DNA of 64,000 nt, taken from NCBI RefSeq assembly GCF_021272345.1, contig NZ_JAJSDQ010000001.1, positions 124,001-188,000 on the forward strand, given 5' to 3'. Positions 34,314 through 63,700 of the stretch are shown piece by piece. This DNA comes from Ornithinimicrobium sediminis. Its GTDB lineage: Bacteria > Actinomycetota > Actinomycetes > Actinomycetales > Dermatophilaceae. Each line of letters opens with the position of its first letter. The first letter of the stretch is position 1. Made by a program: the position numbers and the translations under genes. Under the pieces are notes generated by a model. It did no database searches and was not told the origin of the DNA. It saw only the letters and a list, made by a program, of their open reading frames with translations.

Positions 34314-35348
34314 TCACCACCGCTGCGGGGTGACGAGCAGCCGGTCGAGCGCGCCCACATCCTCGACACACGCGCCGGCCCCGCGGATGACTGCACGCTG
34401 GGGATCCTCCGCGACGCGCACCGGCAGACCGAGCTCGCGGTGCAGGCGCTGGTCCATGGCGCGCAGCAGTGCTCCCCCGCCGGTCAGGACGGCGCCGCGG
34501 TCGACGAGGTCGCCCGCCAGCTCCGGCGGACACAGGTCCAGCACCTCGACGACCACCTCGACGATGCGCGCCAGGACCGGCTCGACCATCTCGCGCACCT
34601 CGGTCGAGTCGAGCGTGACCGTGCGCGGCAGCCCGGTGCTGAGGTCCCGCCCACGCACACGGGTACGCAGCACCTCCGGCAGGGGTGCCGCAGCTCCCAC
34701 GGTGAGCTTGATGTGCTCTGCGCTGCGCTCCCCGAGCAGCAGGTCGTGACGGGCCTTGACCCCGGCGACGACCGCCTCGTCGACCGCGTTGCCGCCCACG
34801 CGCAGGCTGCGCGCGTTGACGACCCCACCGAGGCTGATCACGGCGACGTCCGTCGTGCCGCCCCCGATGTCGACGACCAGGCAGGCCGAGGCCTGGTGCA
34901 CCGGCAGGTCTGCGCCGATGGCAGCGGCCATCGCCTCCTCCAGGACGAAGACCCGGCGCGCACCGCACCGGATCGCGGCGTCCTCCAGGGCCCGCCGCTC
35001 CACGGGCGTGACACCGCTCGGCACACACACGACCATCTGCGGCCGCAGCAGCCGCGAGGGGCTGACCCGGGAGACGAAGTGGCGCAGCATCTGCTCCGTC
35101 AGGTCCGCGTCGGTGATGACCCCGTCGGAGAGCGGACGGCGGGTGAGCACCGCCGCCGGGGTGCGCCCCACCATCTCGTATGCCGGGGTGCCGGCTGCCA
35201 GGAGCCGTCCCGTCGCCGCGTCGAGCGCCACGACGGTGGGCTCGTCCAGGACGATCCCACGGCCGCGCTGGTGGACGAGCGTCGTGGCCGTGCCGAGGTC
35301 GACCGCGAGGTCACGGCCGAGCAGCCTCGTGCTCCGTCGTGTGCTCAC
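34314..35348 (-). CDS. mreB: Rod shape-determining protein MreB (actin homologue)
   Basis: A 344-residue actin-fold ATPase that organises side-wall growth. Phosphate loop 1 is LAVDLGTATTLVH, phosphate loop 2 is LVVDIGGGTTDVAVISLGG (about 158-176), and the adenosine motif is AVLTGGGALLRAMD (about 290). GTG 35348 overlaps the preceding gene's stop (GTGA). The presence of a full mreBCD-PBP2 set argues for lateral wall growth in this organism, although many cocci of the order have lost it. The only unusual point is its position behind an oxygenase and a ferredoxin-like gene in one chained operon. Confidence 0.95.
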   Translation of the reverse strand: MSTRRSTRLLGRDLAVDLGTATTLVHQRGRGIVLDEPTVVALDAATGRLLAAGTPAYEMVGRTPAAVLTRRPLSDGVITDADLTEQMLRHFVSRVSPSRLLRPQMVVCVPSGVTPVERRALEDAAIRCGARRVFVLEEAMAAAIGADLPVHQASACLVVDIGGGTTDVAVISLGGVVNARSLRVGGNAVDEAVVAGVKARHDLLLGERSAEHIKLTVGAAAPLPEVLRTRVRGRDLSTGLPRTVTLDSTEVREMVEPVLARIVEVVVEVLDLCPPELAGDLVDRGAVLTGGGALLRAMDQRLHRELGLPVRVAEDPQRAVIRGAGACVEDVGALDRLLVTPQRW

Positions 35349-36262
35349 CCCGCGATGGTACGCACGGGCCCTGCCACGGGCACCGTGGCTCGGCCGGGAG
35401 CCACCGCACTACAGGTGAGCCGGTGTGGCTCGGTCACCCGGTCGGTGACGGAGACCTCGAGGCGCTGGTCACCCACGGCCAGCACGACCCGGTGCGACAT
35501 ACCGTCGGTCCGGGAGCCCACGGGCTGGACGGCCCCCCATGGCAGCGGCCCACGCTGCTCGTGCGCCGCGACCACCGCCGCCTGGACGGCCGGGGCGTGA
35601 CCGGTCACGCCGCGCAGGTGCGCCGTGAGCGGTGCCCCCTGGTGGTGGGCGGTGACGGCCTCGACCGCGGAGTCCGGGTCGAGCCCGCCGTACATGACGC
35701 CGTCGGGCAGCACGACGAGGTTGGCGGCGAAACGGTCACCACCGGTGTGCGAGCACTCCCACGTCGCCTCCGGCCAGGCCCGGGCCAGGTCGGCTGCCAC
35801 CGGGCGTCCACGCACCGCACAGCAGACATCCTTGCGCCCGTGGGTGCACACGAGCAGGAGCTCGGGAGCGCGGCCCGCCGGACGCAGCGGTGCACGCGCG
35901 GGGCCGTGTGCGGCCAGACCTCGCAGCAGGTCCGCGGCGGCATGCAGGTCGGTGTCGTAGGACCAGCTGCCCCAGGTGACCGGTTCCGGGGCGCCGGCGT
36001 CGACGACGCACCACGCCCGCTCCAGGCACACCGGCGAGCTGCGTCGGCCGGGGCGACGGATGAGCATGATGCGGGCGCCGCTCATCCCGGCGGCCGCGGC
36101 CAGGTCGTCCTTGACAGCGACATCCAGCCGCATCCCCTCGAACGCCTGGGGGGCCCAGCCGCCGTCCTGCTCCAGCAGCAGCCAGCGACGAGCCGGCGGC
36201 GCCGTGCCCACGAGCGGGTCACCGCGCAGGCGCGCGTCGTCGGAGCAGCGGAAGTCGGTCAT
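35345..36262 (-). CDS. Sucrase/ferredoxin-like family protein
   Basis: A 305-residue protein with a thioredoxin-like [2Fe-2S] ferredoxin fold. The signature is VCTHGRKDVCCAVRGRPVA (about residues 139-157) followed by WECSHTGGDRFAANLVVLPDG (about 168-188), i.e. CTHGxxDxCC...HxGGxRFAxN. Members are poorly studied; some bind Fe-S clusters and are linked to iron handling or electron transfer. ATG 36262 lies 6 bases after the stop of the cupin-4 oxygenase, and its stop overlaps mreB. It could supply electrons to the oxygenase, but that is only suggested by proximity. Confidence 0.88.
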   Translation of the reverse strand: MTDFRCSDDARLRGDPLVGTAPPARRWLLLEQDGGWAPQAFEGMRLDVAVKDDLAAAAGMSGARIMLIRRPGRRSSPVCLERAWCVVDAGAPEPVTWGSWSYDTDLHAAADLLRGLAAHGPARAPLRPAGRAPELLLVCTHGRKDVCCAVRGRPVAADLARAWPEATWECSHTGGDRFAANLVVLPDGVMYGGLDPDSAVEAVTAHHQGAPLTAHLRGVTGHAPAVQAAVVAAHEQRGPLPWGAVQPVGSRTDGMSHRVVLAVGDQRLEVSVTDRVTEPHRLTCSAVAPGRATVPVAGPVRTIAG

Positions 36263-36268
36263 GGTCGC

Positions 36269-37525
36269 TCAGGCTACGTCGTCGGCCACCACGATCCCGT
36301 GCCGGACGAGCAGCCGGACGGTCTCCACCGCCTGGTGCTCGTCCTCGTCCAGGTCACCGACGCGTGACGGCCCGCGAGCCTCGAGTGCCTCGAGCACGGC
36401 GCACACCCTGGACGGCATACGGACCCGGCCGGCACGTGACCGGACCACCACCTCGTCCCCGTCCCCGGGGATCGTCTCCAGCATCAGGTGGTCGCGCAGC
36501 CGCACCAGGGTGGCCGCGCCGACGGCCTGCACCGCCTCCAGCTGGGCCAGCGGCGCGACCGGCTCGGGCCGCTGCGCGGCGCGGGCACGCCCGGTCAGCC
36601 AGGCGGCGACCGCCTCGTCCGGCACGTCGCCGACCGCTCGCAGCAGGGCCTGCCGGGCCAGGGCCACGTCCTCGGCCAGCGACCCGTGGGGCTGCACCGG
36701 CAGGGAGGCCCGCACCCCCGCGTCCTCACGCAGCCGGGCTCGGGCCTGGTCGATGAGACCTTCCGCGAGGTGGTGCCGGGTCCAGCCGTGGACGCCGATC
36801 GTCAGGTGGATGCTGACCCCGCCGAGCGCCTGCGCGGAGTGGATGAAGCCACGCGGCAGGTAGAGGCAGTCGCCGGGCTGGAAGGTCTCCTGCAGGTGCG
36901 CAGGCAGCGCCGCGGCGGCCTCGACCTCGGCCCGCCGGTCTGCCCAGGGCTGGTCACGCAGGGGGGCGTCAAGCACCGGCTCGCGGACGGCCCAGCGCTT
37001 GGCACCGTGGATCTGCAGCACGAACACGTCGTGGACGTCGTAGTGGTCACTGAAGCCTTGGCTCTGCGGCGGCGTGACGTAGGCGTTGACCTGCACGGGA
37101 TGCCCGAGGTCGGCGGCCAGCTGCTGGCTCAGGTCCACGACGGGCCCCCAGGTGCGGTGCAGGGCCTGCAGCACGATCGTGGCGCCGTCGGCGAAGAGCG
37201 CCATGACCTTGTCGTCGCTGACCTGGTCGCCGATCCCAGCTCCGACACCGCCCCCGGTCGTGTAGGAGGACTCCGGCAGTGTCGTGCCGTTGCGCGCCAT
37301 CCGGATGAACGGGGTGCGCAGCCCACGACGAGAGAGCAGCTCGTCGACCGCATCCGTGGAGAACAGGTCGGCGAAGTCGTCACCGCCACGCTGCGCCGCC
37401 CTTGTCAGGAGGGCACGCCTCCCCCAGGACTGCGCGGCGAAGCCGGCAGCGTCGTCGCCGAGCAGCCGGGTGAGGGCCGGGGAGCCGGCCCCCACCCGCT
37501 GGTCAGCCGTATGCGGTGCGCTCAC
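36269..37525 (-). CDS. JmjC/cupin-4 domain oxygenase (ribosomal-oxygenase-like)
   Basis: A 418-residue protein with a cupin-4 (JmjC-type) domain in the N-terminal half. The iron ligands are in GFSDHYDVHDVFVLQIHGAKRW (His-x-Asp, about residue 160) and PRGFIHSAQ (His, about 230); the Lys in GAKRW is the usual 2-oxoglutarate site. A dimerisation/winged-helix-like C-terminal half ends AVETVRLLVRHGIVVADDV. The closest studied relatives are RoxA/YcfD, NO66 and MINA53, which hydroxylate Arg or His in ribosomal proteins; a small His/Asp-rich substrate is also chemically plausible. GTG 37525 follows the stop of the repeat gene with no gap. Oxygenase class is secure, substrate unknown. Confidence 0.88.
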   Translation of the reverse strand: MSAPHTADQRVGAGSPALTRLLGDDAAGFAAQSWGRRALLTRAAQRGGDDFADLFSTDAVDELLSRRGLRTPFIRMARNGTTLPESSYTTGGGVGAGIGDQVSDDKVMALFADGATIVLQALHRTWGPVVDLSQQLAADLGHPVQVNAYVTPPQSQGFSDHYDVHDVFVLQIHGAKRWAVREPVLDAPLRDQPWADRRAEVEAAAALPAHLQETFQPGDCLYLPRGFIHSAQALGGVSIHLTIGVHGWTRHHLAEGLIDQARARLREDAGVRASLPVQPHGSLAEDVALARQALLRAVGDVPDEAVAAWLTGRARAAQRPEPVAPLAQLEAVQAVGAATLVRLRDHLMLETIPGDGDEVVVRSRAGRVRMPSRVCAVLEALEARGPSRVGDLDEDEHQAVETVRLLVRHGIVVADDVA

Positions 37526-38128
37526 TCAGTGAGCCCGGTGCGCGCCGCCGTCGGCAGCGCCGTCAGCACCACCATCGGCACCACCATCGGCACCACCGTC
37601 AGCGCCGCCGCCATGGGCACCACCGTCGGCCGGACCGTGCCCCGCAGCGCCGTCAGCACCACCATCGGCACCACCATCAGCGCCACCGTCGGCACCACCA
37701 TCGGCACCACCGTCAGCGCCGCCGCCATGGGCACCACCGTCGGCCGGACCGTGCTCCGCAGCGCCGTCAGCACCACCATCGGCACCACCGTCGGCGCCAC
37801 CATCGGCACCACCGTCAGCGCCGCCGCCATGGGCACCACCGTCGGCCGGACCGTGCCCCGCAGCGCCGTCAGCACCACCGTCGGCACCACCGTCGGCACC
37901 ACCGTCAGCGCCGCCGTCGGCACCACCACCCTGGGCACCACCGTCGGCCGGACCGTGCTCGGCCATGGCCGCTCTCACGTTCGTGGCGTCGATGATGTCT
38001 TCCTCGTTGTAGGGCTTCTCGCGGCTGACGTCGCCCTCGTTGGTGAGCTCCTCGGTGCTGACGTCGTCCTCGTTGGTCGGCGTGGGCTGCGCGTCGTAGG
38101 TGTCGTCGTGGTTCCTGGGATCGGTCAT
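37526..38128 (-). CDS. Acidic-leader, Ala-Asp-Gly-Gly repeat protein
   Basis: A 200-residue protein in two parts. Residues 1-56 are a non-repetitive, acidic, hydrophilic head (MTDPRNHDDTYDAQPTPTNE ... DIIDATNVRAAMA). Residues 57-192 are four units of 34, 34, 38 and 30 residues, each [E/G]HGPADGGA[Q/H]GGG, then 3-5 copies of ADGG, then ADGAA. A short DGGAHRAH tail follows. ATG 38128 has GGGAGG 5 bases upstream. The stop is directly followed by the GTG of the JmjC oxygenase. The layout (leader plus repeated Asp/His/Gly cores beside a hydroxylase) resembles a multi-core modified-peptide precursor, but it could be a structural low-complexity protein. I do not recognise it. Confidence 0.7.
   Translation of the reverse strand: MTDPRNHDDTYDAQPTPTNEDDVSTEELTNEGDVSREKPYNEEDIIDATNVRAAMAEHGPADGGAQGGGADGGADGGADGGADGGADGAAGHGPADGGAHGGGADGGADGGADGGADGGADGAAEHGPADGGAHGGGADGGADGGADGGADGGADGGADGAAGHGPADGGAHGGGADGGADGGADGGADGAADGGAHRAH
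37553..37960 (-). repeat. Four coding tandem repeats of 102, 102, 114 and 90 bp
   Basis: Units on the minus strand: 37960-37859, 37858-37757, 37756-37643 and 37642-37553. Within each, a 12-bp sub-repeat (one ADGG) occurs 3-5 times. All length differences are multiples of 12 bp, so the frame is kept; this is the mark of slippage or recombination under selection for the reading frame. Confidence 0.9.
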
Positions 38129-38236
38129 GGGAGCCTCCCTGAGTCGTGACGTGCCGGACGTCGGCGTCCCGGCATCACCTGACTGTCTACACGACCTGCG
38201 GCGACGTGCAACCGCAGGGTCCCGTTCCCGCCGAGG

Positions 38237-38674
38237 TCAGAGGCTCGGGAACCAGATGGCGATCTCGCGGGCCGCCGACTCCGGCGAGTCCGAGCCGTGC
38301 ACGATGTTCTGCTGCACCTTCAGGCCCCAGTCGCGCCCGAGGTCGCCGCGGATCGTCCCCGGAGCGGCCGCGGTCGGGTCCGTGGCCCCCGCGAGGGAGC
38401 GGAACCCGGCGATGCACCCCTGTCCCTCGACGACGGCGGCCGCCACCGGCCCGGAGGACATGAACTCGACGAGGGGCCCGTAGAAGGGCTTGCCCTCGTG
38501 CTCGGCGTAGTGTCGGGCGAGCTGCTCGGGGGTCGCCTGCACGAGGGCGAGCGCGGCCAGGGTGTAGCCCTTGGCCTCGATGCGGCGCAGGACCTCCCCG
38601 GTGAGGCCCCGGCGGACGCCGTCCGGCTTGACCAGGACGAGGGAGCGTTCGGGCTGCTGGGTCTGATCGGTCAC
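38237..38674 (-). CDS. ndk: Nucleoside diphosphate kinase
   Basis: A 145-residue enzyme that transfers the terminal phosphate from ATP to NDPs through a phosphohistidine. It begins [23 protein letters not shown]; the active-site His is in [17 protein letters not shown] (about residue 125). GTG 38674 is the only start that keeps the N-terminal KPDG block and normal length; it lies 10 bases after the uppP stop. Together with ThyA it feeds dNTP synthesis. Confidence 0.97.
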
Positions 38675-38684
38675 GGGCTGCAGC

Positions 38685-39509
<825 letters not shown>

Positions 39510-63496: not shown

Positions 63497-63683
63497 CCGC
63501 TTGCGAGGGAGTTCCCGGTCCACACCGCCGCTTGCGAGGGAGTCTCCGAGACGTCGGAGCCGTCCTCGCTGGTCGGCGCGCGTCCCGGCCGCGCCGGCTC
63601 ACGCTGCAGACGCCCTCGCACAGCGTGTGTGTGCGGCGCAGGCTCCCTCGCACGGCGCGTGGGGCGGTGCACACTCCCTCGCA
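63497..63683. repeat. Cluster of TGCGAGGGAG repeats in both orientations
   Basis: In the 230-base gap between pepN and malQ the decamer TGCGAGGGAG occurs directly at 63502-63511 and 63533-63542 (within identical 16-mers starting at 63497 and 63528). It occurs inverted at 63643-63652 and 63674-63683, with a partial inverted copy at 63613-63620. Direct copies lie 31 bases apart, and so do the two full inverted copies. A small hairpin CTCCGA/TCGGAG lies at 63544-63559. The inverted pairs can form a long stem between these convergent genes. No coding sequence is seen here. Confidence 0.75.
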
Positions 63684-63700
63684 GGCGAGGGGCGAGGGTG

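Follow-up and report, generated by a model that had tools for sequence, protein, structure and literature searches.

An aspartate-repeat protein encoded beside a JmjC/cupin-4 oxygenase in actinobacteria: a candidate substrate and its enzyme

Is a protein built of aspartate-rich repeats, encoded immediately upstream of a JmjC/cupin-4 oxygenase, the dedicated substrate of that enzyme, or does it stand there for another reason? The question is raised by a locus of Ornithinimicrobium sediminis (assembly GCF_021272345.1, contig NZ_JAJSDQ010000001.1) that lies in a stretch of 64,000 nucleotides, positions 124,001 to 188,000 of the contig; this whole stretch is referred to below as the window. An original prediction, made by reading the sequence alone, had described the locus as a repeat protein with a leader-like head coupled to a hydroxylase, and hence as a possible ribosomally made, modified peptide. 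On the strength of comparative sequence evidence we propose, with a probability of about 0.62, that the two genes form a dedicated modification pair, in which the JmjC enzyme is predicted to hydroxylate aspartates along the disordered repeat protein encoded upstream of it. The elements of the locus are the following.

37526..38128, minus strand: Asp/Gly/Ala repeat protein of 200 amino acids, the proposed substrate (open reading frame (ORF); codon-position test; upstream counterparts)
37958..38128, minus strand: acidic head of this protein, 57 residues, with three imperfect 11-residue copies at 37979-38077
37529..37957, minus strand: repeat region of four HGPADGGA[Q/H]GGG(ADGG)n units, at 37957-37856, 37855-37754, 37753-37640 and 37639-37529
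36269..37525, minus strand: JmjC/cupin-4 2-oxoglutarate-Fe(II) oxygenase of 418 amino acids, the proposed hydroxylase (PF08007, E 5.2e-26)
35345..36262, minus strand: Suc_Fer-like protein, the usual third gene (PF06999, E 1.3e-16)

The repeat gene has an ATG start with a GGAGG upstream, the GTG start of the oxygenase gene (37525) is the base directly after its TGA, and the ATG of the Suc_Fer-like gene (36262) stands 6 bases past the oxygenase stop. The ORF and the mapping of its units agree with the earlier description of a 200-residue protein with four near-identical repeats, followed on the next base by the cupin gene and 6 bases further on by a ferredoxin-like gene. The units measure 34, 34, 38 and 37 amino acids, and the array scores 256, 545 or 586 in Tandem Repeats Finder, depending on the period. 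When the four units are compared pairwise over their 20 leading codons, 30 of 30 differences fall at codon position 3, which argues that the repeat is preserved at the level of the protein and not of the DNA alone. An assignment of the repeats to a known family was rejected, as Pfam and NCBIfam gave no match above their cut-offs, the weak adhesin and FliH matches (E 0.004-0.19) lying far below them. The AlphaFold2 model of the repeat protein is disordered, with a predicted local distance difference test score (pLDDT) below 50.

Joint occurrence of the repeat gene and the oxygenase gene

Cupin genes were collected from 38 relatives (15 positive, the genome of the window included), from 297 genomes of the order (52 positive), from 396 genomes of the phylum (58 positive) and, out of 84,980 species genomes, from the best 80 of 421 relatives; this gave 183 loci, 154 of them with a cupin and 130 of those distinct. 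An automatic rule, which asks for an Asp-containing repeat ORF ending between -250 and +45 bases from the cupin start, was passed by 105 of the 130 distinct clade cupins and by none of 241 control genes (genes other than these, taken from the window and from loci L018-L097), a count that leans to close kin because it includes the best 80 of 421 relatives, the order and phylum sets sampling other genera. The 25 failures comprise four contig edges without upstream DNA (L020, L048, L073, L120), a further contig edge at which the last repeat alone is visible (L012), three loci with a mis-set cupin start and the partner present (L063, L064, L165) and, judged by eye, 14 Asp-rich partners under the threshold together with three non-repeat Arsenicicoccus proteins. 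An acidic, Asp-rich ORF lies upstream of all 126 clade cupins with upstream DNA, and in 123 of these (18 of them judged by eye) it is an Asp-repeat or low-complexity partner; in 85 of 135 cases the repeat ORF runs up to or into the cupin start, as counted from automatic starts of which a few are mis-set. Set beside the controls, these upstream counts support the pair as a dedicated unit, and the cupin gene, whether judged by the rule or by the acidic ORF, is not found equally often without its partner.

The association has a limit that follows the relatedness of the enzymes. Among twenty further cupin loci hand-picked from the order and phylum match tables, an Asp-rich partner is present in all ten whose cupins score at least 240 against the hidden Markov model, and Asp repeats are present in none of the ten distant cupin-4 loci with scores below 200. 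In the phylum sample the enzyme is matched at E <=1e-30 in 58 of 396 genomes, and at least six of these matches are of the distant kind without a partner (G477, G497, G560, G661, G678, G694). A plasmid search with a Streptomyces relative as the query gave 106 records, and among the matches listed the best places are all below 60% identity.

The comparison within the genus covers 21 genomes whose completeness reaches 90%, to the exclusion of G005, G009 and G019, which fall short of it and have no cupin match; twelve carry cupin and array and nine carry neither. A clustered GGADGGA array stands beside the cupin in 11 of the 12 positive genomes, and in the twelfth (G017) one contig stops inside the array, 28 bases past the last word, and the cupin contig begins inside the array; no such cluster occurs in the nine cupin-negative genomes. 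Suc_Fer is present in 12 of 12 cupin-positive genomes and missing from 8 of 9 cupin-negative ones. In G003 a UppP-like and an NDK-like gene (both named by their resemblance to those of the window) are followed after about 70 bases by Suc_Fer; a cupin is absent (best tblastn E 0.29), and the interval from the NDK-like gene to Suc_Fer holds no Asp-rich ORF. Since this site has neither gene, and since the two are absent together in the genus, the repeat gene and the cupin occur or are missing together. Across the order, genomes with at least five GGADGGA words on one strand, identified by eye, make up 23 of the 52 cupin-positive and 6 of the 245 cupin-negative genomes.

Of the 139 loci with room for the third gene, 106 have Suc_Fer downstream of the cupin and on its strand, 105 of them within 120 bases, and across the order Suc_Fer is present in 49 of 52 cupin-positive against 16 of 245 cupin-negative genomes (Fisher p 3e-38, shared ancestry ignored), the positive set including two genomes, G088 and G130, whose best cupins are of the distant kind. 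In four genomes of genus code g21 (G145, G173, G247, G319) Suc_Fer is found about 11-23 kb from the cupin. It is also far from the cupin in G057, the Arsenicicoccus genome of locus L113.

Short ORFs of other kinds were noticed beside some cupin-4 genes. Different short ORFs just upstream of the distant cupin-4 genes of L199 (minus strand) and L200 both end in GRSDGND and resemble precursor peptides of another cupin-4 pairing, and L202 and L203 share a near-identical short ORF, MNES.L.PSEAELRAAAIDDVSDFDGDAPMVIENIDFA, beside cupins scoring 86-153, which is possibly a precursor peptide.

Conserved features of the partner and of the enzyme

The wording of the repeats varies from lineage to lineage: ADGG in Ornithinimicrobium, GPADGGAxGTPGVHDGGADGGAE in Streptomyces, Nocardioides and Brachybacterium, DPAGSDPAG elsewhere, and DGDASDATDGD or DADAADAD in deep branches. 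Mapped on the cupin tree, repeat type changes 22 times against a chance mean of 45, a few of the labels being rough (L058, for example, is entered as DxD). What the partners have in common is an Asp with a small residue after it. Over their C-terminal 60 residues, 135 partners have medians of 11 Asp, 2 Glu and 1 His; the residue after Asp is G, A, S or T for 87% of 1599 Asp, with Ala rather than Gly the commonest in the deep clade. Because Asp is preferred over Glu, we infer a chemistry on Asp rather than mere acidity. The original prediction had named both Asp and His as potential targets, and of these Asp remains the proposed one; His as a general target is unlikely and was rejected, since 51 of the 135 partners have no His in their last 60 residues (27 have at least three), even though the repeats of the window do hold 9 His beside 25 Asp, so that in this one protein His may be a target. 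One partner, that of L192 (G429), is composed of two near-identical units TEDDENLDAPGEHSQDTGDE, a different Asp/Glu unit, and sits on a long branch.

The head of the window protein is longer by one residue than the 56 first given, as 57 precede the first HGPADGG at residue 58, and the description of it as non-repetitive does not hold: it contains three imperfect 11-residue copies (TNEDDVSTEEL, TNEGDVSREKP and YNEEDIIDATN), Tandem Repeats Finder reports a 33-bp repeat at 38002-38077, and three [ND]E.D[VI] words were reached in none of 20,000 shuffles of the head. A 64-residue query, made of the head and the first repeat residues, found no match among 37 relatives, and a leader in the form of a conserved long domain was rejected on this result. 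Of the 94 partners outside the deep branches whose starts are trusted, 62 have at most 16 residues before the first repeat and 15 have 17-30; 14, that of the window included, have a head of more than 30 residues, and three contain no repeat word. In the deep branches, on the other hand, the N-terminus carries a short motif (for example LSDEDIETV, LTDEDIRTT or INDDDITTS), whose strict form occurs in 25 of 37 members of the deep set, against a shuffled mean of 0.04 and against 1 of 95 other partners. Ten of the twelve misses show, by eye, a variant or a wrongly chosen start; the set of 37 includes two partners of other type (L158, L159) and three wrong starts (L016, L184, L187), whose true heads do show the motif. 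By resemblance, the three 11-residue copies of the window look like an expanded relic of this motif. The claim of a leader is thereby divided: a short motif does recur in deep branches, and because it is conserved there a leader-like element may be ancestral, but the head of the window is without relatives found and most heads outside the deep branches are short.

The oxygenase matches PF08007 with 91.1 bits against a cut-off of 22. Its iron triad HxD...H (H161, D163, H229) and K176, which we take to be the lysine that binds 2-oxoglutarate, are intact in all 139 clade members and in 8 outgroup cupins. R70 is Arg in 139 of 139 clade members and S/E/E/D/Q/E/E/R in the 8 outgroup cupins; it sits in an LRTPF segment to which nothing in NO66 corresponds when the profiles are aligned, and it is a candidate Asp-binding residue. 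The AlphaFold2 model of the enzyme has pLDDT values mostly of 90-98, with NO66 as the best match in the PDB: Foldseek ranks 1-21 are NO66, followed by MINA53 and ycfD, and by sequence and fold together the nearest solved structures are NO66, MINA53, ycfD and YxbC. As judged by Foldseek, the model contains the JmjC, helical and C-terminal winged-helix regions of the ribosomal oxygenase fold, the C-terminal domain being named as winged-helix on our assumption.

Proposed function and competing explanations

We propose that the oxygenase, with Fe(II), 2-oxoglutarate and O2, would hydroxylate aspartyl residues of the repeat protein, most likely at C3 and many per chain, and that recognition would be borne by the repeats themselves (Asp, then a small residue), with the short head motif probably aiding docking in the deep branches. 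Such a reaction would give an intracellular polymer that bears beta-hydroxy-aspartate at many positions. In siderophores beta-hydroxy-aspartate serves as a good ligand of Fe(III), and our guess is that the polymer binds hard metals (Fe(III), Ca) or phosphate, the Suc_Fer-like protein probably keeping the iron of the enzyme reduced or handling the bound metal. The sequence data establish the genes and how they are linked, the conservation of the Asp repeats, the integrity of the active site and the joint presence and absence; the repeat protein as substrate, Asp as its target, hydroxylation as the reaction and the role of the product are predictions built on them. The further step, to a poly-(beta-hydroxyaspartyl) polymer in actinobacteria that, together with a ferredoxin-like partner, would act inside the cell as a material that binds metal or responds to oxygen, is tentative, and we rate it at somewhat less than even odds.

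A number of observations weigh against the proposal. Linkage by itself would be compatible with an inhibitor, a chaperone or a regulator too. In the last 60 residues Ala occurs at least three times in 135 of 135 partners and Gly in 133 of 135, so that both are nearly as constant as Asp. The Arsenicicoccus partners (L058, L081, L113) are acidic and non-repetitive, with DDPEL[AS]GADL.EDQ in common; in L004 a second short, acidic, non-repetitive ORF (about 1273-1486, 210 bases) intervenes between repeat ORF and cupin; and in L013 (G012, minus strand) the repeat ORF is split between frames, which reflects either a true interruption or a fault of the assembly. No Suc_Fer gene adjoins the cupin in 33 of 139 loci. 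When the window pair and that of L173 were each modelled in AlphaFold2 as a read-through fusion, neither the window repeats nor the L173 head came to lie in the enzyme, and a by-eye, non-systematic reading of the DNA upstream of five groups and the window recognised no iron box or other known regulatory site. Docking as a line of evidence was set aside, since the fusions left the partner disordered, with a weak helix in L173 over the head motif only.

A competing explanation is that the enzyme is an ordinary ribosomal oxygenase, with the Asp-rich protein as its unmodified regulator, inhibitor or chaperone. JmjC-type oxygenases are known as ribosomal oxygenases (PMC4295552, PMC6006756), and the closest structures, NO66, MINA53 and ycfD, hydroxylate ribosomal proteins, their known substrates in the available text of the sources being single His or Arg residues; moreover, a protein that is both acidic and disordered could act as an RNA mimic. 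Yet the distant cupin-4 loci have no partner (0 of 10), a gene set present in 12 of 21 genomes of the genus is odd for a housekeeping ribosome modifier, and an acidic inhibitor would need neither a strict choice of Asp over Glu nor so many repeats. We regard this explanation as unlikely, and we give no greater chance to a classical ribosomally synthesised and post-translationally modified peptide (RiPP), in which the head would be a leader and the repeats would serve as cores, excised and exported after modification. The multi-unit repeats with an oxygenase gene adjacent, and the head motif of the deep branches with its excess over shuffled sequences, are what such a system would present, and the JmjC or cupin-like enzymes BipG and PbsQ are described, in the available text of PMC12707348 and PMC12257519, as hydroxylases of biphenomycin-type RiPP pathways. 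The shortness of most heads outside the deep branches, where the strict motif is nearly absent, tells against a leader, as ADGG-only repeats, which offer no obvious cut site, do against excised cores. No peptidase or peptide exporter was found among ten flanking genes of nine loci (seven with Pfam matches, three without), and the conserved three-gene set contains neither; a classical cleaved RiPP is thus not shown, although genes located elsewhere may carry out the processing. From the layout first read into the locus there remains a precursor-like gene, in an inferred precursor role, adjoining the enzyme, and the long conserved leader is not supported.

Other chemistry on the repeats, such as further oxidation, cross-linking or a change of the backbone, perhaps with electrons from Suc_Fer, would account for the ferredoxin-like partner in 49 of 52 cupin-positive genomes, the more so as, to our knowledge, ordinary JmjC hydroxylases need none. 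The fold and residues of the enzyme are those of plain hydroxylases, however, and the loci in which a cupin stands without an adjacent Suc_Fer also speak against it; it appears to us less probable still than the two preceding explanations. The possibility, raised with the original prediction, that a GC-rich, low-complexity ORF lies upstream of an oxygenase by chance owes its appeal to a simple repeat in a GC-rich genome and to how common short GGADGGA-coding words are (205 of 297 genomes match). Against it stand the rule passed by 105 of 130 cupins and 0 of 241 controls, the confinement of unit differences to codon position 3 and the joint absence of repeat gene and cupin within the genus, by which it is excluded in practice.

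Known systems and surroundings of the locus

With NO66, MINA53 and ycfD the oxygenase of the window shares the fold, the HxD...H triad and the position of the 2-oxoglutarate lysine; it differs from them in having a dedicated, disordered Asp-repeat protein as the product of the neighbouring gene, and from NO66 in the LRTPF segment with R70. FIH and AspH are 2-oxoglutarate oxygenases that hydroxylate Asn or Asp (FIH also His) in repeated domains; they are eukaryotic and act on folded ankyrin or EGF domains in many unrelated substrates, with no operon link. The hydroxylation of repeats by a 2-oxoglutarate oxygenase, proposed here, would be a likeness to them. Multi-core RiPP precursors carry many near-identical units after a head; here, in contrast, the head is not conserved throughout, no processing genes were seen among the neighbours tested, and the repeats are possibly the final polymer. 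The likeness to BipG and PbsQ is that a dedicated ribosomal peptide and a JmjC-type hydroxylase are encoded together. According to the available text of PMC12707348 and PMC12257519, these two target a single ornithine of a precursor made up of leader and core, and their clusters are larger, with MNIO, radical SAM and protease genes, whereas here there are two or three genes, many Asp repeats and no cleavage enzyme seen.

Literature searches found, among the matches listed, no description of an Asp-repeat/JmjC pair, and the string DGGADGG does not occur in the literature searched. A dedicated peptide with a JmjC hydroxylase is thus already known in kind, and it is the Asp-repeat pairing that was not found in the literature or family libraries searched. 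The recurrence of Asp-repeat protein and JmjC hydroxylase in many actinobacteria suggests that they make up an undescribed enzyme-and-substrate system. In the available text of the literature found, wherever a protein substrate is known for a bacterial JmjC-type oxygenase, it is a ribosomal protein or a RiPP precursor; here a substrate is suggested by gene linkage across a whole phylum. If the proposal is true, it would define a class of protein modification that is widespread and yet absent from the family libraries and papers searched, add a repetitive hydroxylated polymer to common bacteria and give Suc_Fer-like proteins a functional context.

In the window the three genes are flanked by NDK and a BacA/UppP-like gene upstream and by an MreB-like gene downstream. 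Beyond the trio, the families of the neighbours differ from locus to locus, with one CorA-like Mg transporter (L090). PADLOC gave no match for the three proteins, and no structured RNA scored above its gathering score at 35200-38800. A GC-rich, near-palindromic stretch like GACGGCGTCGnCCGGCGCCG occurs 5' of the repeat gene in L026, L036 and others (Terrabacter-like) and in L047, L056 and L086 (Nocardioides), and is possibly regulatory; in its place several Streptomyces and Serinicoccus members and the window have CGGTTGC in common. Near its end, at 63605-63687, the window repeats a unit of about 32 bp in tandem (2.7 copies, 79% matches).

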